From positions 1 through 39,399 of the IMG/VR virus record IMGVR_UViG_3300046000_008888: a stretch of 39,399 bases of DNA. One strand, given 5' to 3'. Below the pieces are notes generated by a model. It did no database searches, was not told the origin of the DNA, and saw only the letters and a list, made by a program, of their open reading frames with translations. Positions 18,364 to 31,505 of the stretch are shown here, in pieces (within the stretch, counting starts at the first letter, position 1; each line of letters starts with the position of its first letter). The translations under genes and the position numbers were made by a program. Source of the stretch: a virus.

Positions 18364-21123
18364 ATGGCTTGTATTTCAGGAATTACTTTAGGAGGTTATT
18401 ATAGTTATTTTGATTGTTGCGGATTAAATCAATCGGGTATTAGTCCTGGTTTACAAAGCGTGTGTGTTGATTCGGCATATTCTGCAAGTACCGTAGGATT
18501 ACTATTATATAGTGGAACACCTTGTACCTTAGATTGTAATCAAGGACCACTTAGTTATACTTTTACCGTTACGGGAGTTTGTAACAACCCAACAGGGCAA
18601 GTAACAATACAACCATATGGGGGAACACCACCATACACTATTGATAATATAACACCAGGAGGTATTTCCGCTCAAACAAGTACTTCAGCAATAACCTTCA
18701 CGGGTTTAACTGGAGGGACTTATGTTTTTAGACTTAACGACTCTCTTGGAATTCAAAACAACGAATTATTTATTAACGTTGAAATATCAGATTGTTTTAG
18801 TGCAAATATAACAAACACTAGTGGAACCACTTGTGGTAATGATAACGGATCGTTTTTTGTTAATTCAACCTCAACTGCGGCACCATATAGTTTAATACTT
18901 TATAAAGATAATCTATTTTACCAAAATTATTTAACAAATACTTTACCATACCAAATAAACGGGTTGTCTGATGGAATATATTATGCAACCATTTACGATT
19001 ATGGGTTTAGTACCGCAAATACCGAAAACGTCATAATATCCGCGAGTACAGGAACGCAATTTGGTTTATGGAAAGTAAACGCATCTAATTGCGTTATAAA
19101 TACAGGTAAACTTGCCGTAACGGGAATAACGGGTACAGGACCATACACGTATTTATGGTCAGACGGACAAACATCACAAGTAGCGACAGGATTGACTGTT
19201 GGAACATATAGTGTTACGGTTACTGATTATTACGGATGTGAAACAACAGGTTCGGATACTATTGGTGTTGCCGACCCACTTGGCGTTGGTTTACTATCAT
19301 CAGTTAATCCTTCTTGTTTTGCGTCTGACGGTTCTATAACTGTTACATTAACAGGCGGAACCGCACCATTTTATTATTCTGCAAATACAGGACAACAAGG
19401 GTATACGTTATCAAACACATTTACAATACCCAATATACCCGCAGGGCCATATGTTATTAGTGTTAGAGATGCTAATTTCTGTCCACTTAATGTTTTTGCA
19501 ACACTAACAACAGTTAATGGATTTAATGTTATTAGTACGACTGTTGTAAATAATAATTGTAATCCAGGAAATGCTCAAATAATTGCAAATATTGAAGGAA
19601 TAACCCCATTTTTATATTCATTATCCGGTATTAGTACTAACTACTATAGTAGTTTTTCAACAACAAATGAATTAACGACTTTTACAAATTTACAAGACGA
19701 CACGTATGTTCTTATCATATCTGGACAATCAAGTGGATGTTATTATGTTGATTCACTTGTTGTTCAAACTCAGTCAACATTTGGAATTAACGTTTCATTA
19801 ACGGGGGCCACTTGTGGTTCACCTAACGGTGCGGTTACAATTGACGTAACAACGGGATATACGGGACCTTTAGATTTTATTTTAATTGGTGGAGAAACTC
19901 AATCCGTTATTGATTGGCCATTGTCATCGTACACGTTTAATTACCTACAACCAGGAAATTATGAAATTCAAGTGATTGATGGTCTTAATTGTATTGTTTC
20001 ACAAAACTTTAGTATTGGGTCCTTAGGGTTATTAAATTCTAACGTTATAACAACCGATTGTGTTTTGGGTAATGACGGTGCGGTTGAAGTAATTGTTTAC
20101 GAGGGTGAACCACCATTTACCTATACTTGGTCAAATAATGTACCTGTAGGACAAACGGGGTCAACAATAAACGGATTATCAGGAGGAACGTATCAACTAA
20201 TAGTTACGGATAGTAGTGGGTGTACAGACACAACAATTTTTAATATTAACTGTAACGTTAATCTTATAACGGGAACCACAAGCTATGAAATCTGTGATAA
20301 TTCTTTTACAACTACAACAGGAAACAAAAGAGGGATAGTTGAAATGATTTCAGAAGGGTTTTTGGATTTAACATCTGGATATACAAATTGTTATATTAAC
20401 TATTACACATTAGAGTGTAATATTAATTTAAATGGAAGTGCCTTCACTCAAACGGTATTAGTTGAAAACGACAGCGGATGGCAACAATCAATAGAAACTA
20501 TATTATCATCAATACCTGAAGTTGGGGATTACCAAATTGATTTATTAAACAATACATTATTTATTGCATCTAATTGTCAAGTAGGTGAAGACCCACTTGG
20601 AAATGCGGGGTTCAGTTTAGCGTTAGTCGTGGAATATGATATTAGCTGCGAGGATATCGTACCAACACCTACACCAACACCTACCGCAACTCCAACACCT
20701 ACACCAACACCTACCGCAACTCCTACACCAACACCTACACCAACATCTACGGTTACACCAACACCTACACCAACATCTACGGTTACACCAACACCTACCC
20801 CATCACCATCACCAACACCAACACCTACTCCTGTTTATTATACTTGGTTATCGAATAGCGCTTATTATGCTCTTGGTGTACCACAAACCTGTGCAGACCC
20901 GATTGGTTCGTTAACCCTTTATACATCAACACCAACATTAAGTGTGGGAACAGTACTTTATACTAACCCTTCTTTAACTACTACGGTCTCACCATCAGCG
21001 TCTTGTGGAGGGGCGCCAGGGACTTTATGTCAAAAGGCGATTAAATCTTCTAACCCTTTAAGTCTTAGACGAAAAGTAACCGTAGGAGGTGGTGGAACCA
21101 TCGTATATTTACAAAATTGTTAA
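18364..21123 (+). CDS. SprB-repeat adhesin/tail fibre with Pro-Thr linker
   Basis: 919 residues from ATG 18364; a TTG at 18355 would add three residues and overlap the previous stop. The N-terminus is Cys-rich ([12 protein letters not shown]). Residues about 60-640 hold around seven SprB-type beta repeats with the pattern G-x-x-P-Y-x-Y-x-W-S-x-G, then G-L-x-x-G-T-Y-x-V-x-V-T-D-x-x-G-C. Clear copies are [13 protein letters not shown] and [13 protein letters not shown]. SprB is the cell-surface gliding adhesin of flavobacteria. A pure Pro-Thr/Ser linker (about residues 767-822) leads to a C-terminal domain of about 95 residues. Probably a receptor- or glycan-binding fibre. No signal peptide was seen, as expected for a virion protein. 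Confidence 0.8.
20661..20832 (+). repeat. Pro-Thr-coding tandem repeat (linker of SprB-type adhesin)
   Basis: Imperfect hexamer array based on CCAACA and CCTACA, coding (P-T)n. Larger units are duplicated in tandem, for example a 30-base unit ending in ACATCTACGGTT, near 20729-20758 and 20759-20788. It codes for an extended stiff linker. Confidence 0.9.
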
Positions 21124-21741: not shown

Positions 21742-24330
21742 ATGCCAATAACTTATCAATATTTAACGGACAGAACCTTAGTTACACAAAGTGCGGTAAC
21801 TACAGACAGTTTAATACACGTTGTTATTCCAGCTGACATATCACAAAATCCTGCAGGATCATCATATAAGGCAAAACTTTCGCAAGTGATAAATGTATTT
21901 TCTTCTTACTTCGTTAACACAAGTGGGGATACTATGACTGGAACATTAATTGTCCCAACAATATCAGCAACAACATACAATAACTTACCATCCACATCAG
22001 GATTATATCTACCATTAAGTGGTGGAACAGTAACAGGAAAAACAATTTTTAATCAGGGTTTAACGGCAACAACAATATCTGCAACCACTTATTTAAATTT
22101 ACCTACCACAACTAACGGTTACCTACCATTAAGTGGTGGAACTGTGACAGGTAATACAAGTTTTACAAGTGGTGTTACCGCTAACACAATATCTAACACA
22201 ACATATATTGATTTTACTACGGGATCCACAAATCCTTCTGCTGTTGGCGGAAGAATGTTCTTTGATAATACATCAAAGTCATTATCTTATTACGATATTA
22301 TTGGTAATAACGTTCCAATTGCAATGGGACAACAACTATATGTTAGAGGAAATAACGCAACAGGATCACAGATAAATAAAGGTAGTGTTGTTATGGTTAC
22401 AGGAACTACTAATACATTACCGAGCATTGCATTAGCGACAAATAATCACGCACAAGGAACACCACGACCAATCGGGTTGGCGGCTGAAAACATATCAAGT
22501 GGTAGTGATGGTTTAGTCATTGTTAATGGTATATTAAGTGGTATTACATTAAATACCTTTGCAAATGGGGACACATTATATTTGTCCAACTCAACACCTG
22601 GAGGATATGTTAACTCAACCTCATCGTTACCGTTTAGTGCAAGAACAAATGAAATTGGTTATGTGTTACAAACAGGAACAACAACAGGTAAAATATATGT
22701 AAATATTAATAATGAAGATAGTAATTTAACTTTAACCGATATTGAAAGAAATATCCTTGAGGGTAATGTAATTTCAACGGGAATATATGAGTATACAGGA
22801 ATGTCTGTTGCCAGTTCCACAACAATAAATGTTGCTCCCGCTAGAGGATGGATCGTAAATAACACATATAATTTTGCAACATCACCTGATGTTACTAATC
22901 TTTATTATTCGGGTGGAACAGGAATTACAATGACAAACATCGCAACTGCAGACGCCACCTACATTTTATTAACTAGTGCGTCCACAATAACACAACAAAC
23001 AACATTCCCAACACCACAACAAAGAAGAGAAAATATACTTTTAGGTAAAGTTGTTCACCCAAGTAGGACATCCATATTAAATGTTAACAATACTGTAGAT
23101 TTTGACGTTTCACCTATGTCGGCACTTCGTGATTTATGGACACCGATAAGATTAATAAATCAAGGAGTAATACCATCTGCGAATACTGGACTAACAATTA
23201 ATACAACTGCTGGGACTTTATGGGGTAATGGTATTGGGTGGGTATCAAATCAATTAAACCCTGATAGTGTTAGTATTTCGGCAAAAACACCAGCATCTTT
23301 CTTTTATAGAACACAAACAGGAGGAACAAGTGGTTCGGTATCAGTTATAGATCCAACAAAATATGATGTTGGCGGGGTCATCACAAGTATGGGTGCTGCG
23401 GGTGTTGACGACTCATCCAACCAAAGAATTTACCTTTACCCAACTGGAGTTATAAATATCCTATATGGACAACATAAATACAACAATTTGGCTGCGGCGG
23501 TTGCCGCGATACAATCAGAAACCTTTGTGGTTTATCCAAATGCTGAAACTACAGGTATTTTAATTGGTGTGTTATCAGTTAGAAACGATATTGTTGCTGA
23601 CGGTGAAGCGTTAACAAACACTGATTATGCTAAATTCACATTAGTTTCTAAATTTGGTGAGAGTTTTGGTGGAACGGGTGGTTTATCTACAACAACACTA
23701 CAACAAGCATATAATAATTCGGTAACACCCGAAATAACCACTAATTCAACATTAGGTCCGTTAAGTGTTAAAAATGGTGCAGGTACATTGGATAATGTTA
23801 CAAACGTTTTTGAGGGTGTTAACGCTACAGGAACAACAACATCATATGTTCGTGCCGATGGTGCAATATTAGGAACATCAATATCTGCAACAACATTTAA
23901 TCTTGCGGGTTCACAAATAGAATCTGCTTGGACATCATATGTTCCCGTTTGGACTGCAAGTGGTACTAATCCAGTGATTAATAATGGAACTATAGAAGGT
24001 TGGTATAAAGTAATTGGTAAAACGTGTTTTGTAAGAGGAAATATTGCGATGGGTAGTACAACAACTTTTGGTACAGGAGAATGGTACGTCTCGATGCCGG
24101 TTACAGCTGTACACGCTGACGCCATATTAATGACGGTAACTTTATTAGATAATGGTAGTGCTTGGTATAACGCTACAATGGCTGGAGGAAGAGCGGGGTT
24201 TAACACTAAAGCCCCTATGCAATATGTAAATATTGTAAATGGAACTGCTAGTGACGTAAATGTGACCCAACCATTTACTTGGGCAAATGGTGATAGATTT
24301 ATTTGGAACGGGTCATATGAGATAGCTTAA
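21742..24330 (+). CDS. Tail fibre protein with repeat stalk and receptor-binding tip
   Basis: 862 residues. Residues 1-55 (S-L-I-H-V-V-x5-S-Q-N-P-A-G-S-S-Y-K) match the N-terminus of the 175-residue protein at 29348 and probably form the shared attachment module. Residues 90-165 carry a 38-residue repeat with Y-L-P-L-S-G-G-T-V-T-G and I-S-A-T-T-Y, the phage fibre stalk repeat. The middle is a long beta-rich stretch with L-A-A-A-V-A-A-I-Q. The C-terminal 140 residues (W-T-S-Y-V-P-V-W-T-A-S-G-T-N-P, G-W-Y-K-V-I-G-K-T-C-F-V-R-G, T-T-F-G-T-G-E-W) resemble tip domains of many phage fibres. The next two genes are glycosyltransferases. Confidence 0.88.
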   Translation: MPITYQYLTDRTLVTQSAVTTDSLIHVVIPADISQNPAGSSYKAKLSQVINVFSSYFVNTSGDTMTGTLIVPTISATTYNNLPSTSGLYLPLSGGTVTGKTIFNQGLTATTISATTYLNLPTTTNGYLPLSGGTVTGNTSFTSGVTANTISNTTYIDFTTGSTNPSAVGGRMFFDNTSKSLSYYDIIGNNVPIAMGQQLYVRGNNATGSQINKGSVVMVTGTTNTLPSIALATNNHAQGTPRPIGLAAENISSGSDGLVIVNGILSGITLNTFANGDTLYLSNSTPGGYVNSTSSLPFSARTNEIGYVLQTGTTTGKIYVNINNEDSNLTLTDIERNILEGNVISTGIYEYTGMSVASSTTINVAPARGWIVNNTYNFATSPDVTNLYYSGGTGITMTNIATADATYILLTSASTITQQTTFPTPQQRRENILLGKVVHPSRTSILNVNNTVDFDVSPMSALRDLWTPIRLINQGVIPSANTGLTINTTAGTLWGNGIGWVSNQLNPDSVSISAKTPASFFYRTQTGGTSGSVSVIDPTKYDVGGVITSMGAAGVDDSSNQRIYLYPTGVINILYGQHKYNNLAAAVAAIQSETFVVYPNAETTGILIGVLSVRNDIVADGEALTNTDYAKFTLVSKFGESFGGTGGLSTTTLQQAYNNSVTPEITTNSTLGPLSVKNGAGTLDNVTNVFEGVNATGTTTSYVRADGAILGTSISATTFNLAGSQIESAWTSYVPVWTASGTNPVINNGTIEGWYKVIGKTCFVRGNIAMGSTTTFGTGEWYVSMPVTAVHADAILMTVTLLDNGSAWYNATMAGGRAGFNTKAPMQYVNIVNGTASDVNVTQPFTWANGDRFIWNGSYEIA
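22009..22142 (+). repeat. Fibre stalk repeat, 114-base period
   Basis: The 20-mer CTACCATTAAGTGGTGGAAC occurs at 22009 and again at 22123, in frame, giving a 38-residue protein period. Weaker copies of the I-S-A-T-T-Y part occur before and after, and once more near 23882. Confidence 0.85.
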
Positions 24331-24367: not shown

Positions 24368-25615
24368 ATGAAGATTTTTATACAAATTGCGTCTTATAGA
24401 GACCCTGAACTAATACCGACAATTAAGGATTGTATTAATAACTCTAAGTATCCTGAAAATTTAGTATTTGGTATTTGTAGACAATTTCATCCTGAAGATA
24501 AGTTTGATGATTTATCGGAATATAATAACGATGACAGGTTTAGAGTTATTAACGTACCATATTTAGAAGCGAAAGGAGTTTGTTGGGCAAGAAATCAAGT
24601 TCAACAATTATACAAAGACGAAGAGTATACTCTTCAAATAGATTCCCATATGAGATTTGAAAAAAATTGGGATGAAACATTAATTGAGATGATTCACCAA
24701 CTTCAAGAAATAGGAATACCAAAACCATTACTTACAGGGTACGTATCATCATATAATCCACAGAATGATCCTGAAGGAAGGGTTAGAGTTCCTTGGAGAA
24801 TGACTTTTGATAGATTTATACCTGAAGGGGCCGTTTTCTTTTTACCTGAAACGATCCCAAATTGGGAAGATATTGAATTACCTGTACCGTCAAGATTTTA
24901 TTCTGCTCATTTTTGTTTTACTTTAGGAATATTTTCAAAAGAGGTTCAACATAACCCTGAATTTTATTTTCACGGGGAAGAAATATCAATTGCTGTTAGG
25001 GCATTCACCCATGGATATGATTTATTTCACCCACATAGAGTTGTACTATGGCATGAATACACAAGAGATGGTAGAACAAAACATTGGGATGATGATAAAG
25101 AATGGTGGAAATTAAATAACAGTGCACATAATTTGAATAGGTTGTTGTTTGGTATGGACGGTAACGAACAATCAGGACATAACGGTAAATATGGGTTTGG
25201 AACTGTTAGGACATTAAGGGATTATGAAATTTACTCAGGATTACTTTTTTCAAAACGAGCAGTACAAAAATACACATTAGATAAAAGTTACCCACCAAAC
25301 CCATATGATTTTAATAGTGAAGAAGAATGGATTACTAGTTTTTCTACAATATTCAAACATTGTATTGATTTAAATTTAGATAGAGCACCATTTGATGATT
25401 ATGATTTTTGGGTTGTGGCGTTTCATAATTCAAAAGGAGACACAATTAATAGACTTGATTTAAACAAAGATGAAGTTAAACAACTACAAAAAGATACTAC
25501 AGGAGTTTGTAAAATATGGAGAGAGTTTCAAACAACAGAAAAACCATCATATTGGGTTGTGTGGCCTTACTCATCATCTAAAGGATGGTGTGATAAAATA
25601 GAAGGTAAATTATAA
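24368..25615 (+). CDS. Glycosyltransferase, Skp1/polypeptide GlcNAc-transferase-like (GT60 type)
   Basis: 415 residues. The N-terminus I-F-I-Q-I-A-S-Y-R-D-P-E-L-I-P-T-I-K (3-20), A-K-G-V-C-W-A-R-N-Q-V-Q (68-79) and the catalytic-type L-Q-I-D92-S-H94-M-R-F-x3-W-D are the hallmarks of the GlcNAc-transferase family that includes Dictyostelium Skp1 GlcNAc-transferase. That enzyme adds GlcNAc to a hydroxyproline, and relatives act on Thr. The D-S-H triplet is the metal- and sugar-nucleotide-binding motif. F-H-G-E-E-I-S-I-A-V-R-A-F-T-H-G-Y-D (about 198-215) is the second conserved part. It lies six bases before a second glycosyltransferase and directly after a fibre gene, so virion protein glycosylation is more likely than DNA modification. 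The acceptor is inferred, not shown. Confidence 0.88.
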   Translation: MKIFIQIASYRDPELIPTIKDCINNSKYPENLVFGICRQFHPEDKFDDLSEYNNDDRFRVINVPYLEAKGVCWARNQVQQLYKDEEYTLQIDSHMRFEKNWDETLIEMIHQLQEIGIPKPLLTGYVSSYNPQNDPEGRVRVPWRMTFDRFIPEGAVFFLPETIPNWEDIELPVPSRFYSAHFCFTLGIFSKEVQHNPEFYFHGEEISIAVRAFTHGYDLFHPHRVVLWHEYTRDGRTKHWDDDKEWWKLNNSAHNLNRLLFGMDGNEQSGHNGKYGFGTVRTLRDYEIYSGLLFSKRAVQKYTLDKSYPPNPYDFNSEEEWITSFSTIFKHCIDLNLDRAPFDDYDFWVVAFHNSKGDTINRLDLNKDEVKQLQKDTTGVCKIWREFQTTEKPSYWVVWPYSSSKGWCDKIEGKL

Positions 25616-25621
25616 TTTAAT

Positions 25622-27325
25622 ATGAGAATTTGTATAGTCACTTTATTCACTGAAGAAATAGAAAAAGAATCAAGATTAGCAACATTAAATAAAAAAAAAT
25701 ATTGTGAAAAATATAATTTAGATTATAGATTTTTTTACGGTAGAGCATCTGATAGGCACGCACAATGGGACAAGATACAATGTTTAATACAAACATTACC
25801 TGAGTATGATTATGTGATATGGATGGATAGTGATACCGTGTTTAATAATTTTGATATATCATTTATTGATTTAATTAAAAACAACTTAAACTTTGATTCA
25901 TTATTTTGTAGTGATGTATGTTATACTGAAGGGGTTGTGCACCTTATGGTTAACACTGGTGTTATGATATTTAAAAACACTGAATGGTCGTCAAATTTAT
26001 TAAATAAAGTTTGGAATAGCATTCCTGAATATAGTTTAGATAAATTAGATAAACATTCATATGATGGTTTCCCACACGAACAAGGTAAAATGTGTGAAGA
26101 ACTTAATAGAGAAAATACGGACAAGTTTAAAATATTCCCATCCACGGAATTTAATAGCCACCCAAATTCATCAAATGACAAAACATTTATTATCCATCAT
26201 ATGGGTAGCAGACAATCTGAATCTCACCTATCAACTTTTATTAATTCGGTTAAAAGAGTTAATAATAATTTAGGTATTAATGAAAATGAAACCTTTGATG
26301 TTATTAATTTAAAAAAATTAAAAATATGTTTAGTATCTCATTACACTGAAAATATTCAAAATGTTGCAAACATCACTATCCCTAATAAGGAAAGTTACTG
26401 TAAAAAACATAATTACGATTTTAAATACCATAAAGGAAGATTAAGTGATAGACACCCTGGTTGGGACAAAATATTATACCTAAAAGAGATTATGTCAACA
26501 AATGAATACGATTACGTTGTTTGGGTAGATAATGACGCATATATTACAAATAAAGAAATTAGATTTGATTTTATTTGTAATGAAAACCCAAGTAAAAAAT
26601 TAATGATAGCATCAGAAGATACAAATAGAGGTATAACATCATTAAACCCTAATTTAGATTACAATCAACTACATAATTTAAGAATAGTTAACACAGGAGT
26701 AATGATATTAAAAAATGATGATTGGACAATTAATTTTTTAAACACTGTATGGAATACTAAAAGTAATACAAATAGAGGGATTGAATACTCACATAAAGAA
26801 ATAATTAATAATAATTTTAACTACGAATATTGGCCGTTTGAACAAGGACCTATACATTTGGTACTTTCACAATCAAGTCCCGATGATTATAAAATTTTTA
26901 ATAGTGAAATTTTAAATAGGTTTAGAACTGACCATAAAAAACAACATTTTATTTGTCATTTTGTTGGTGAGGGTTCTAATGACATTACAATAAAAAATTA
27001 TATAGAAAGTTTATCAGAACAAAATAAAAAAACATTAATTAAAAGTTTTAACGTTACCGCACCATTTAAAGACAGGTTTACCAGACTATATTGTGAAATA
27101 TATAAAAATAATGATTTATACAGGTTAAAGTATATTTGGGATTACTCTAATATTGGAATTGACCATTTAAGTCATTCATTTGAGATTATTGACGGTAATA
27201 TCAGAAAACAAATTGATTTTGATAGTAATAGTACGGGTTCCTTTGAATTTAAAAACTTAGACAGTAAAAAAATTAACCATTCATATAATTGGTTTGGTGA
27301 GTGCGATTGGAAACAAATACTATAA
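25622..27325 (+). CDS. Tandem-domain glycosyltransferase, GT34 (GMA12/MNN10)-like
   Basis: 567 residues with two copies of one fold. Domain 1 (about 1-215): I-C-I-V-T-L-F-T, Y-C-E-K-Y-N-L-D-Y, H-A-Q-W-D-K-I-Q, then Y-V-I-W-M-D69-S-D71. Domain 2 (about 230-440): I-C-L-V-S-H-Y-T, Y-C-K-K-H-N-Y-D-F, H-P-G-W-D-K-I-L, then Y-V-V-W-V-D303-N-D305. Each has the D-x-D motif for metal and nucleotide-sugar binding and a later N-T-G-V-M-I stretch, so both look active. A C-terminal part (about 450-567) is different and ends C-D-W-K-Q. The W-D-K and W-(M/V)-D-x-D layout is that of galactosyl- and mannosyltransferases of GT34 type. It could extend a sugar placed by the upstream enzyme. Donor and acceptor are unknown. 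Confidence 0.85.
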   Translation: MRICIVTLFTEEIEKESRLATLNKKKYCEKYNLDYRFFYGRASDRHAQWDKIQCLIQTLPEYDYVIWMDSDTVFNNFDISFIDLIKNNLNFDSLFCSDVCYTEGVVHLMVNTGVMIFKNTEWSSNLLNKVWNSIPEYSLDKLDKHSYDGFPHEQGKMCEELNRENTDKFKIFPSTEFNSHPNSSNDKTFIIHHMGSRQSESHLSTFINSVKRVNNNLGINENETFDVINLKKLKICLVSHYTENIQNVANITIPNKESYCKKHNYDFKYHKGRLSDRHPGWDKILYLKEIMSTNEYDYVVWVDNDAYITNKEIRFDFICNENPSKKLMIASEDTNRGITSLNPNLDYNQLHNLRIVNTGVMILKNDDWTINFLNTVWNTKSNTNRGIEYSHKEIINNNFNYEYWPFEQGPIHLVLSQSSPDDYKIFNSEILNRFRTDHKKQHFICHFVGEGSNDITIKNYIESLSEQNKKTLIKSFNVTAPFKDRFTRLYCEIYKNNDLYRLKYIWDYSNIGIDHLSHSFEIIDGNIRKQIDFDSNSTGSFEFKNLDSKKINHSYNWFGECDWKQIL

Positions 27326-27407: not shown

Positions 27408-29036
27408 ATGGCTAATTTATTATTTGAAGGTTGTTGTTATGATGGTTATCAGTACTATACTGACGAGGCTGCTTGGATTGCAACAGGAGGAACCGCAACA
27501 ACGGGATTAACTTACCACTTTTCAGGTGACCCAGTGGTACCTAATGGTTGTTATACTATAGTATCTGCGTTCACTTCAGGGTTTAGCTCAACGATATTCA
27601 CACAATTAGATGGGACTTATACCTTACAAACAGATTGTAGCGATACATTATGTTTAACTGCAGATTGTTGTAGTAATGAAGTTTGTGTCACAATACCTTT
27701 AACCACTTATTCTGGTATAAGTGGCGATTATGTGGTTGCCGGTAATTATAACTCATATCCTTTTTGGACGGGGTCAACCGATCCAGGGTATTTATTTTTT
27801 AATGGTACTAATTGGTGTTTATCTGATAGTTTAGGAGGTACTTGTTATTTTTATGGGTCAAACCCAACGACTTATGTTTGTCCCGATTTAGACGAGAGTA
27901 TTTATCATATATCATTTTGTACACCACCACCTACTCCGTATGACCCTTGTTCTACGTTTGATTTCGATCTTTTAGTTGAGTGTGAAATACCTGTACCAAC
28001 ACCTACACCAACAGCCACTATAGTACCAACACCTACACCAACACCTACACCTACAGTAGATATTTGTTCAGGATTTACTGTGAGTGTTAGTTTTAGTTCA
28101 ACAACTGCACCAACACCATCACCAACCCCAACACCATCACCAACAGCAACGTTTCCTTATAATATTGTTGGGCAATCGGTAACTTTTGTAATTGATGATG
28201 GTAATTTTGAATGTATAACAGTTAAAAAATTAATTGAGTGTGATAATGGAAATGAGATATTTGTTGCAAACCCATTAGTGTATTCAAGTAGTGCGATTAC
28301 TACAGGAACAACATTTTTGGCATTATTTAGTGAGGGTAATAAATGTGTTACCTACGTTGAGGATGAATTTGGTAGTCCTTCAGATTATATTGTAACAATA
28401 AATTCAGTATTTACTGGAGATTGTAGTACTTGTGTTGCACCAGCAATAACACCTACTCCGACAACGACACCAACACCTACGCCAACACCTACACCTACAC
28501 CTACACCAACTGTATCATATGCGGTAGGAACATCGTTTATATTCACATCTTGTACAAGTAATACTATGGTAATACAAAATCTTTACCCACCAACAAATAT
28601 TGTTAGTGGTAGTATAGTACAAGATTACTCAGGAAATTGTTACACGTATGTCGGTTATTATGTTAATTACATACCACCAACAGGATTCTTATGGACAAAT
28701 GCTAATTTGTTTACGGGGACAACCGCAACAACATATACTTCTTGTATTTCTTGTTTAACACCAGCACCTACGGCAACACCAACGTATTTACAGTATACAG
28801 GTAGAGGTGAATTTGGAGTTTCTTGTCCTGTTTGTGAATTAACAAATGGTGGTACTCAAATAACATTCTATACAGAATATAGTACACAACCACTACAAAC
28901 AGGTGACTATATTTATGAAGATAGTACACTTATAACACCAGTAATAATGAGTTATATTAAATATGGAGGTAAAATATATAGTGTTGACTTAGATGGTCAA
29001 ATAACAGAATTTTGTATAGTAAATGGTAATTGTTAA
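27408..29036 (+). CDS. Cys-rich adhesin/tail fibre with Pro-Thr linkers
   Basis: 542 residues. Beads-on-a-string layout: an N-terminal Cys-rich part (E-G-C-C-Y-D-G-Y), a module with Y-P-F-W-T-G-S-T and L-F-F-N-G-T-N-W-C (about 105-170), Pro-Thr linkers at about 195-221, 231-250, 344-370 and 450-463, and two modules between them. Each of the two contains G-N-x-C-(V/Y)-T-Y-V and closes with a C-x-x-C pair (D-C-S-T-C and S-C-I-S-C). The C-terminal part (I-T-F-Y-T-E-Y, Q-T-G-D-Y-I-Y-E-D-S-T-L) resembles the end of the adhesin at 18364. The alternation of folded modules and rigid linkers looks like a surface adhesin. Starts with ATG after an A/T-rich leader and opens the second cassette. Confidence 0.75.
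   Translation: MANLLFEGCCYDGYQYYTDEAAWIATGGTATTGLTYHFSGDPVVPNGCYTIVSAFTSGFSSTIFTQLDGTYTLQTDCSDTLCLTADCCSNEVCVTIPLTTYSGISGDYVVAGNYNSYPFWTGSTDPGYLFFNGTNWCLSDSLGGTCYFYGSNPTTYVCPDLDESIYHISFCTPPPTPYDPCSTFDFDLLVECEIPVPTPTPTATIVPTPTPTPTPTVDICSGFTVSVSFSSTTAPTPSPTPTPSPTATFPYNIVGQSVTFVIDDGNFECITVKKLIECDNGNEIFVANPLVYSSSAITTGTTFLALFSEGNKCVTYVEDEFGSPSDYIVTINSVFTGDCSTCVAPAITPTPTTTPTPTPTPTPTPTPTVSYAVGTSFIFTSCTSNTMVIQNLYPPTNIVSGSIVQDYSGNCYTYVGYYVNYIPPTGFLWTNANLFTGTTATTYTSCISCLTPAPTATPTYLQYTGRGEFGVSCPVCELTNGGTQITFYTEYSTQPLQTGDYIYEDSTLITPVIMSYIKYGGKIYSVDLDGQITEFCIVNGNC
27991..28056 (+). repeat. Pro-Thr-coding repeat, linker 1 of adhesin
   Basis: Two blocks of the CCAACACCTACA type separated by a short A-T-I-V-coding piece. 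The same hexamers as in the array at 20661. Confidence 0.85.
28108..28150 (+). repeat. Pro-Thr/Ser-coding repeat, linker 2 of adhesin
   Basis: CCAACACCATCA-type units coding P-T-P-S, twice repeated. Confidence 0.8.
28450..28510 (+). repeat. Pro-Thr-coding repeat, linker 3 of adhesin
   Basis: A run of ACACCTACACCA-type hexamers coding an uninterrupted (P-T)n stretch of about ten pairs, the longest linker in this gene. Confidence 0.85.
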
Positions 29037-29879: not shown

Positions 29880-31505
29880 ATGGCAGGATATACAGGAAAT
29901 ACGTGTGATATTATAACATTATTCCCATTGGGGGTTATATGTCAGAGTGTAAATGCATATACACCATTCACAAGTGATGGTGCAATAAATTTATTTATAA
30001 CAGGAGGTACACCACCATATACAATAACTTGGAATAACGGATCACAAAGTCAAAATATAACTAATTTACAATCAGGAAATTATACGGCAACAATAAAAGA
30101 TTATTACGGTGATTTTAGTGCAACGACAACTTGTACCGTTGGTTACGATACGTTTTATATTGAAAAATTTAAAAATTGTACAACATTATCTGAAATTTAT
30201 TATAATGCCAATTTAAGTTTACTATATAGCGGAGGTTCAATTTACTCTTTAAATAATCAACAAGGGTGTTGGATTAGTGAAGGTATTGAGTTATACACAG
30301 GACAAACTTATTATAACTATAGTGCGGTAACCGTTACAGGACCATTTGAAAATTGTTCAGAATGTTTACCAACGGCACCCGTTGTTTTAAATACATCTGC
30401 TCTATGTCTAACAAACATATATCAGTCAACAGTAACTCAATATCAGTTTTTTTCTGGAGGGACAATTAATGGGTACCCTTCTTGGACATCATCAACTAAT
30501 AATCAAGTAATATATTATAACACAACAAACACAAGTTGGAGAATAACTGGATGGCCATTAAATGGTACACCGTATCTACAAAATGCGACAAGTCCACCAA
30601 TTGGTACTTGGGATATGTTGAATTCAATTCCGGCAAGTATTATAACAGTCAATCAAGGTAGTTGTGGTAATGTTATGACGGCAACAGTGACTAGTACTCC
30701 TCCATTATGTCAAGGAGGAACTAACGGAACTATTACGGTCACTTCAGTTGCTGGAGGAACCGCACCATATACATACTCATTAATTGATGATTTAAGTTTT
30801 TACCAATCATCCCCGACATTTTTAAACCTTAGTGAAGGTAACTATACAGTCTTTATTCAAGATCTTTTTGGTAACGTTACAGTTAATACTGTTAATTTAT
30901 TATCGCCAACACCACCGACACAATATACAATTAACTTAACTTTAACACCTACAAATGGTACACAATTAAATTTCACAACAACAAATACAACTAAGTTATG
31001 GAATTGGTCTGTTTCTGTGACACCACCGCTACCTGCGGGTAAAGAACTTAATTTTACGTTAACACATGCATCAAATTATTCGGCAACAACTGTTGGGGTA
31101 AACACCTCATCTGTATCTTATAGTCAAACAACAGGTACCACAGGAGGAGGTCAGTTTTTAACTTCCCAAACCCCAATAGTGATAACAAATAACTCATCAA
31201 CAGTCCCTTGTTCAAGTACTTTAACATACACAAATTATTTAACAAATAGCACAATTAGACAATATACGGCAAAAATTGTTGGTACAGGTACTGTAAATGG
31301 CACAGTAACACAAGGTGTCACAGTTACCAATAATGTAAACGGTTGTGTGGTAACTGCAGAAATAATAGATAGCATATCTATAACTAACATACAATTAGTT
31401 AACCAAAATCAATGTGAGATAATAAATACTAACATACAACCATTAACATTTAGTTTAGGTAGAACTGGAACACCAGCAGCTTCCATTAATAACCAACAAC
31501 TATAA
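29880..31505 (+). CDS. SprB-like repeat adhesin/tail fibre
   Basis: 541 residues. Residues 30-90 are one SprB-type unit ([17 protein letters not shown], then L-Q-S-G-N-Y-T-A-T-I-K-D-Y-Y-G). A second lies at about 270-345 (G-G-T-N-G-T-I-T-V, G-T-A-P-Y-T-Y-S, S-E-G-N-Y-T-V-F-I-Q-D-L-F-G). Between them are two modules also seen in the adhesin at 27408: one with Q-G-C-W-I and closing C-S-E-C, and one with N-G-Y-P-S-W-T-S-S-T and I-Y-Y-N-T-T. The C-terminal 190 residues are Thr- and Asn-rich beta structure without linkers. It follows the 175-residue gene by four bases. Confidence 0.75.
   Translation: MAGYTGNTCDIITLFPLGVICQSVNAYTPFTSDGAINLFITGGTPPYTITWNNGSQSQNITNLQSGNYTATIKDYYGDFSATTTCTVGYDTFYIEKFKNCTTLSEIYYNANLSLLYSGGSIYSLNNQQGCWISEGIELYTGQTYYNYSAVTVTGPFENCSECLPTAPVVLNTSALCLTNIYQSTVTQYQFFSGGTINGYPSWTSSTNNQVIYYNTTNTSWRITGWPLNGTPYLQNATSPPIGTWDMLNSIPASIITVNQGSCGNVMTATVTSTPPLCQGGTNGTITVTSVAGGTAPYTYSLIDDLSFYQSSPTFLNLSEGNYTVFIQDLFGNVTVNTVNLLSPTPPTQYTINLTLTPTNGTQLNFTTTNTTKLWNWSVSVTPPLPAGKELNFTLTHASNYSATTVGVNTSSVSYSQTTGTTGGGQFLTSQTPIVITNNSSTVPCSSTLTYTNYLTNSTIRQYTAKIVGTGTVNGTVTQGVTVTNNVNGCVVTAEIIDSISITNIQLVNQNQCEIINTNIQPLTFSLGRTGTPAASINNQQL

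Follow-up and report, generated by a model that had tools for sequence, protein, structure and literature searches.

A constant GT60 glycosyltransferase gene with exchangeable partners in the fibre module of an uncultivated virus: a proposed cassette for O-glycosylation of virion proteins

The DNA analysed here, referred to as the window, is a 39,399-base IMG/VR record from an uncultivated virus whose genes run from the end of a ribonucleotide reductase through baseplate wedge genes, very large structural genes and fibre genes to replication genes; the source is probably a large phage with hosts of the Bacteroidota type. Inside the fibre module, a GT60 gene and a GT34-like gene lie on one strand with 6 bases between them, among genes for fibre and adhesin-like proteins (Table 1), and the adhesin-like protein that follows them adjoins the cassette in relatives too. 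The Pro-Thr tracts of the window are encoded by mixed Pro, Thr and Ser codons, not by one exact DNA repeat, and their DNA forms an imperfect 6/12/30-base tandem array. The open reading frames, the sequence motifs of both enzymes, the spacing of their genes and the tracts are all as the initial annotation of this DNA had described them. Outside the fibre module, between the ribonucleotide reductase and the baseplate genes, we also observed an HNH/endonuclease VII-like gene (1503-2051) that has no homologue in the compared stretch of the relative G002 and may be a mobile endonuclease.

Table 1. Features of the proposed cassette and of the surrounding fibre module (window coordinates)
Feature	Position	Strand	Remarks
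SprB-repeat fibre/adhesin protein, 922 aa	18355..21123	+	PF13573, E 1.1e-18; candidate acceptor
Pro-Thr/Ser tract of the 18355 protein, aa 769-828 (60 residues)	20659..20838	+	
Tail fibre protein, 862 aa, directly 5' of GT60	21742..24330	+	phrog_16641 (tail fiber), E 4.4e-16
GT60 polypeptide GlcNAc-transferase-type enzyme, 415 aa	24368..25615	+	proposed glycan initiator; PF11397, phrog_24687, AF2, Foldseek
Tandem GT34-like glycosyltransferase, 567 aa	25622..27325	+	proposed glycan extender, exchangeable cassette member; PF05637
Adhesin-like protein, 542 aa, three Pro-Thr tracts, directly 3' of the cassette	27408..29036	+	candidate acceptor
Pro-Thr tract 1 of the 27408 protein, aa 196-217	27993..28058	+	
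Pro-Thr/Ser tract 2 of the 27408 protein, aa 228-250	28089..28157	+	
Pro-Thr tract 3 of the 27408 protein, aa 345-371	28440..28520	+	
Second SprB-repeat adhesin, 541 aa, same fibre module	29880..31505	+	PF13573, E 7.2e-15

The GT60 product matches the Pfam family GlcNAc with an E-value of 6.6e-66 (223.6 bits against a cut-off of 21) and its phrog with an E-value of 2.5e-163, and it carries at residues 92-94 the sequence DSH, which corresponds to the DxH metal/nucleotide motif. All of the 81 phage GT60 relatives compared have D92, S93 and H94, and D92 and H94 are likewise present in every one of 54 GT60 sequences from phages and bacteria, with identity falling as low as 27%. The AF2 model, built from a 54-sequence alignment, reaches a pLDDT of 94.7 and replaces a first model (pLDDT 71) from a less deep alignment; when it is submitted to Foldseek, the top 26 PDB matches are all polypeptide GalNAc-transferases (E 5e-10 for ppGalNAcT2), placing its GT-A fold closest to the polypeptide transferases, the enzymes that start mucin-type O-glycosylation. 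A sequence-profile search of the PDB also returns a ppGalNAcT (6s22), albeit as a weak match (E 0.033). In protists, GT60 enzymes are pp-alphaGlcNAcTs and initiate mucin-type chains on domains rich in Ser and Thr (PMC8724618), and Skp1 Gnt1 is a member of the same family (PMC6939170). Taken together, the family, the invariant DxH and the structural match support the earlier proposal that the first enzyme is a polypeptide-type initiator, with the activity being predicted from sequence and model. No membrane anchor is visible at its N-terminus (MKIFIQIASYRDP), and hence the enzyme should act in the cytoplasm. Its C-terminal domain (residues ~310-415, window 25295-25615) is confidently folded in the AF2 model, has no Pfam match and lies outside the match region of the shorter bacterial GT60s; it is possibly an acceptor-binding module.

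The second product matches PF05637 (E 1.5e-20; 74.4 bits against a cut-off of 23) and is an internal tandem duplication whose halves are 34% identical (E 2e-38), each with a DxD motif (DSD at residues 69-71, DND at residues 303-305), which bears out the two GT34-like domains recognized at the outset. Its closest PDB sequence relatives are xyloglucan 6-xylosyltransferases, and we propose, as had been suggested before, that this second sugar enzyme may extend an existing glycan.

The initial annotation had treated the two genes as a unit, a view that does not survive comparison with other viruses. At least 579 viral stretches encode GT60 relatives, and in 100 of 100 non-redundant phage loci a same-strand gene stands 3' of GT60, at a median gap of 2 bases; the 99 non-redundant proteins encoded there include GT25 (11), HtrL_YibB (7), FkbM methyltransferase (6), PLOD-type GT (4), GT10 (3), carbamoyltransferase (2) and GT34 (2) members, together with GT11 and acetyltransferase members, a diversity that makes the GT34 partner of the window one of many. 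We rejected GT34 as a conserved partner of GT60, its relatives in viral contigs numbering only 8, of which 4 are distant. The closest relative, contig G002, whose tail genes on both sides of the cassette are up to 88% identical to those of the window, has at the same spot a GT60 gene (41% identical) followed by an unrelated 265-aa gene that replaces GT34, and, conversely, L084 and L086 carry the GT60 and GT34 pair, at 70-74% identity, among different surrounding genes. GT60 thus consistently leads a tightly packed cassette of sugar enzymes whose other members vary, and the pattern of exchange suggests a glycan cassette whose outer sugars would be under diversifying exchange.

We consider it probable that the GT60 and GT34-like genes constitute a cassette for the O-glycosylation of virion proteins, with the fibres as its target; that the target lies in the fibre module, as first proposed, is supported. 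Phage glycosyltransferases often act on modified bases of phage DNA, in the manner of T4, and some GT60-bearing contigs do encode a PF00303 protein, a profile that covers thymidylate synthase too; however, 13 of the 23 GT60-bearing contigs or records searched lack such a protein (contigs of 229, 200 and 196 kb among them, although several in the set are potentially incomplete), the cassette sits within the fibre module, away from DNA genes, it differs greatly in gene content between phages, and the GT60 fold best matches polypeptide transferases. DNA glycosylation, which had been ranked as the weaker alternative from the beginning, is on these grounds very unlikely. Neither do we see much chance that the cassette modifies a host surface glycan (LPS or capsule) during infection, e.g. 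for superinfection exclusion: flippase, GtrA/GtrB and lipid-carrier enzyme are absent from the 25 commonest cassette families, the known acceptors of the GT60 family are polypeptides and the cassette genes sit inside same-strand structural gene clusters, even though GT25, GT9 and Caps_synth, all represented among the cassette families, are typical of surface polysaccharide genes.

If virion proteins are indeed the target, the acceptor residues have to be located within them, and the initial annotation had assigned them to the rigid linkers. Among the 71 phage GT60 loci with enough flank, 69 have a Pro/Thr/Ser-rich gene no more than 6 genes from GT60, with such a gene immediately upstream in 49% of phage loci, and in nine of nine large contigs one occurs within five genes; permuting the GT60 position in these nine contigs gives a combined p of 1.2e-5, a value confounded by the fibre module. 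In homologous fibre loci that lack GT60, however, Pro/Thr/Ser-rich genes are at least as frequent, and every random position falls within 6 genes of one. We consequently discarded proximity in phages as proof, since the fibre module alone explains the Pro-Thr neighbours. The same applies to the search for the GT60 and GT34 pair beside Pro-Thr adhesins in related phages: Pro-Thr proteins do flank the pair on both sides in two loci (L085, L087), but they are frequent in homologous loci without GT60 as well. Contig-wide Pro-Thr density differs weakly between contigs with and without GT60 (p 0.02; long contigs p 0.06). The longest pure tracts measure 29-104 residues at GT60 loci as compared with at most 26 elsewhere in that cohort, a difference that belongs mainly to the window's own clade, given that the median across all GT60 loci is 20; we retain it as a clade-level observation and not as a general GT60 feature.

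The serious rival is a variant of the same virion cassette in which the acceptors are Ser/Thr residues in folded fibre or other virion domains, while the Pro-Thr tracts, a shared trait of such phages, serve as spacers and stay unmodified. Pro-Thr tracts do occur in many related fibre loci, and in one 282 kb contig, without GT60, and 10 of the 71 GT60 loci lack any strictly pure tract at a distance of up to 5 kb. What speaks against folded domains, and in favour of the linkers, comes from enzymes of the GT60 and GT27 families, which act on Ser/Thr-rich mucin domains (PMC8724618), from T. cruzi gp72, in which a similar Thr-Pro domain is presumed to carry the glycans (PMC3630849), and from unrelated bacterial chromosomes, where GT60 adjoins Pro/Thr/Ser-rich genes in spite of their rarity there. 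We regard the folded-domain reading as unlikely, and the Pro-Thr tracts as the main acceptor with a likelihood slightly better than even.

It is therefore the bacterial chromosomes, and not the phage loci, that provide discriminating support for the linkers as acceptors. GT60 is rare in bacterial genomes, exceeding the cut-off in 4 of 395 genomes of one class, where the query genome alone gave a strong match, and in 4 of 369 of another; our set of bacterial records comprised 46 GT60 loci, at least two of which (L279 and L284) look phage-derived. Eleven of 12 Pro/Thr/Ser-rich genes lay within two genes of a bacterial GT60, as against 1 among 266 genes farther away (Fisher p 7.5e-5). In Jiulongibacter sediminis the Pro-Thr DNA pattern appears once in the 4.5 Mb genome, directly beside GT60, and genes for carbamoyltransferase and FkbM/HtrL follow downstream; GT60 has as its neighbour a T9SS-sorted Pro/Thr/Ser-rich protein in a Saprospiraceae genome and a TpsA-type adhesin in a Burkholderiales genome. 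All of these bacterial neighbours are exported, and they are synthesized in the cytoplasm that also contains the GT60 enzyme. Several of the loci have features of their own: a Tat-signal-like Pro-Thr-tract protein is encoded between two GT60 genes in Jiulongibacter (L276:5942-9227); one protein of L288 (6204-16552) joins an HtrL-like N-terminal part to tandem GT60 domains and adjoins a TpsA-type adhesin (ESPR, TPS domain) with Thr/Pro tracts; and a Sphingomonas MAG (L283:8001-12331) carries GT60 in an apparent contractile injection system (eCIS) locus, the next gene having an eCIS_core domain.

A P4H-type 2OG-Fe(II) oxygenase is fused to one or several GT60 domains in three bacterial proteins (L309:7260-9887, L308:5241-10214, L293:4033-9442), of which the one from Kordiimonas also has a TTL/ATP-grasp domain, and such fusions are a single-chain equivalent of the Skp1 hydroxylase/Gnt1 pair. 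They lend some substance to a Skp1-like route in which prolines of the Pro-Thr tracts are first converted to hydroxyproline by a prolyl hydroxylase and then capped by GT60. Yet the route finds no support in phages: of 25 large contigs or records searched, just 3 gave a PF13640 match above the cut-off, and no oxygenase was present among the window proteins scanned. It is hence very improbable here, and hydroxyproline, which the initial annotation had entertained as an acceptor, is unlikely in most of these phages, given how few contigs contain a prolyl-hydroxylase-type gene. Two small proteins near GT60 (L018:135-770 and L082:1060-1668) look by eye like 2OG-Fe(II) oxygenases; the second has a weak match (phrog_81, E 0.0014) and the first no supporting match.

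Returning to Pro-Thr linkers as the preferred acceptor, we infer a scheme in which GT60, in the host cytoplasm, would transfer the first sugar, probably alpha-GlcNAc donated by host UDP-GlcNAc, to Thr or Ser of the neighbouring fibre and adhesin proteins, most likely at sites in their Pro-Thr linkers, whereupon the tandem GT34-like enzyme would extend or cap that sugar and the finished glycoproteins would be built into the tail. With GT60 constant and the later enzymes swapped, each phage might display a different glycan on similar linkers, and the benefit could reside in stiff, protease-resistant stalks, in shielding or in surface binding. To our minds, the evidence is evenly poised on the broader proposition that modular O-glycosylation of the mucin type is widespread in large aquatic phages, with an invariant GT60 priming the Pro-Thr linkers of tail adhesins and swappable extenders diversifying the glycan, and that related GT60/linker pairs, including prolyl hydroxylase-GT60 fusions, exist in free-living bacteria. 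The glycosylation of virion proteins has rarely been demonstrated in bacterial viruses. If the proposition holds, phages would own a mucin-type protein glycosylation in which the initiator stays constant and the extension genes can be swapped, so that the sugar coat of the organelle in contact with the host could easily be varied. They would also offer a compact cytoplasmic O-glycosylation toolkit independent of a Golgi; a family of several hundred viral genes would thereby acquire a function, and the role of glycans in phage adsorption would be directly testable in cultured GT60 phages.

Our partial coverage of the literature on GT60 in phages yielded no study beyond a remark on XacN1, a cultured Xanthomonas phage. 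Its GT60 (ORF334) is 46% identical to that of the window over the full length and is followed by a carbamoyltransferase, an HtrL-like protein and other cassette-like genes; in contrast to the window, this GT60 lies outside any annotated fibre module. Pro-Thr tracts occur at many places in the XacN1 genome. XacN1 virions are reported to contain at least two glycoproteins, which the authors suggest are made by phage glycosyltransferases; the main text neither names these glycoproteins nor ties them to GT60 or to Pro-Thr proteins (PMC5852040). In mycobacteriophages, too, phage glycosyltransferases have been proposed to decorate virion proteins (Freeman et al. 2023, as cited in PMC12619734), where the same source places the glycans at the C-termini of capsid and tail-tube subunits, whereas in the window GT60 stands beside fibre genes with Pro-Thr linkers.

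With the GT60 pp-alphaGlcNAcTs of Dictyostelium and T. cruzi, Skp1 Gnt1 among them, the window enzyme shares the Pfam family, the DxH motif and a GT-A fold like that of mucin-type GT27, and the Thr/Pro-rich polypeptides on which the protist enzymes act are of the kind that phage GT60s adjoin. It differs from them in being encoded by a phage, in showing no N-terminal membrane anchor, in its extra C-terminal domain of ~100 residues and in the exchangeable extenders that follow it. A cytoplasmic transferase encoded beside its adhesin is familiar from the HMW1C-HMW1A and SRRP systems, which employ other glycosyltransferase families, and an arrangement of this type recurs here at L288, where GT60 is paired with a TpsA exoprotein.
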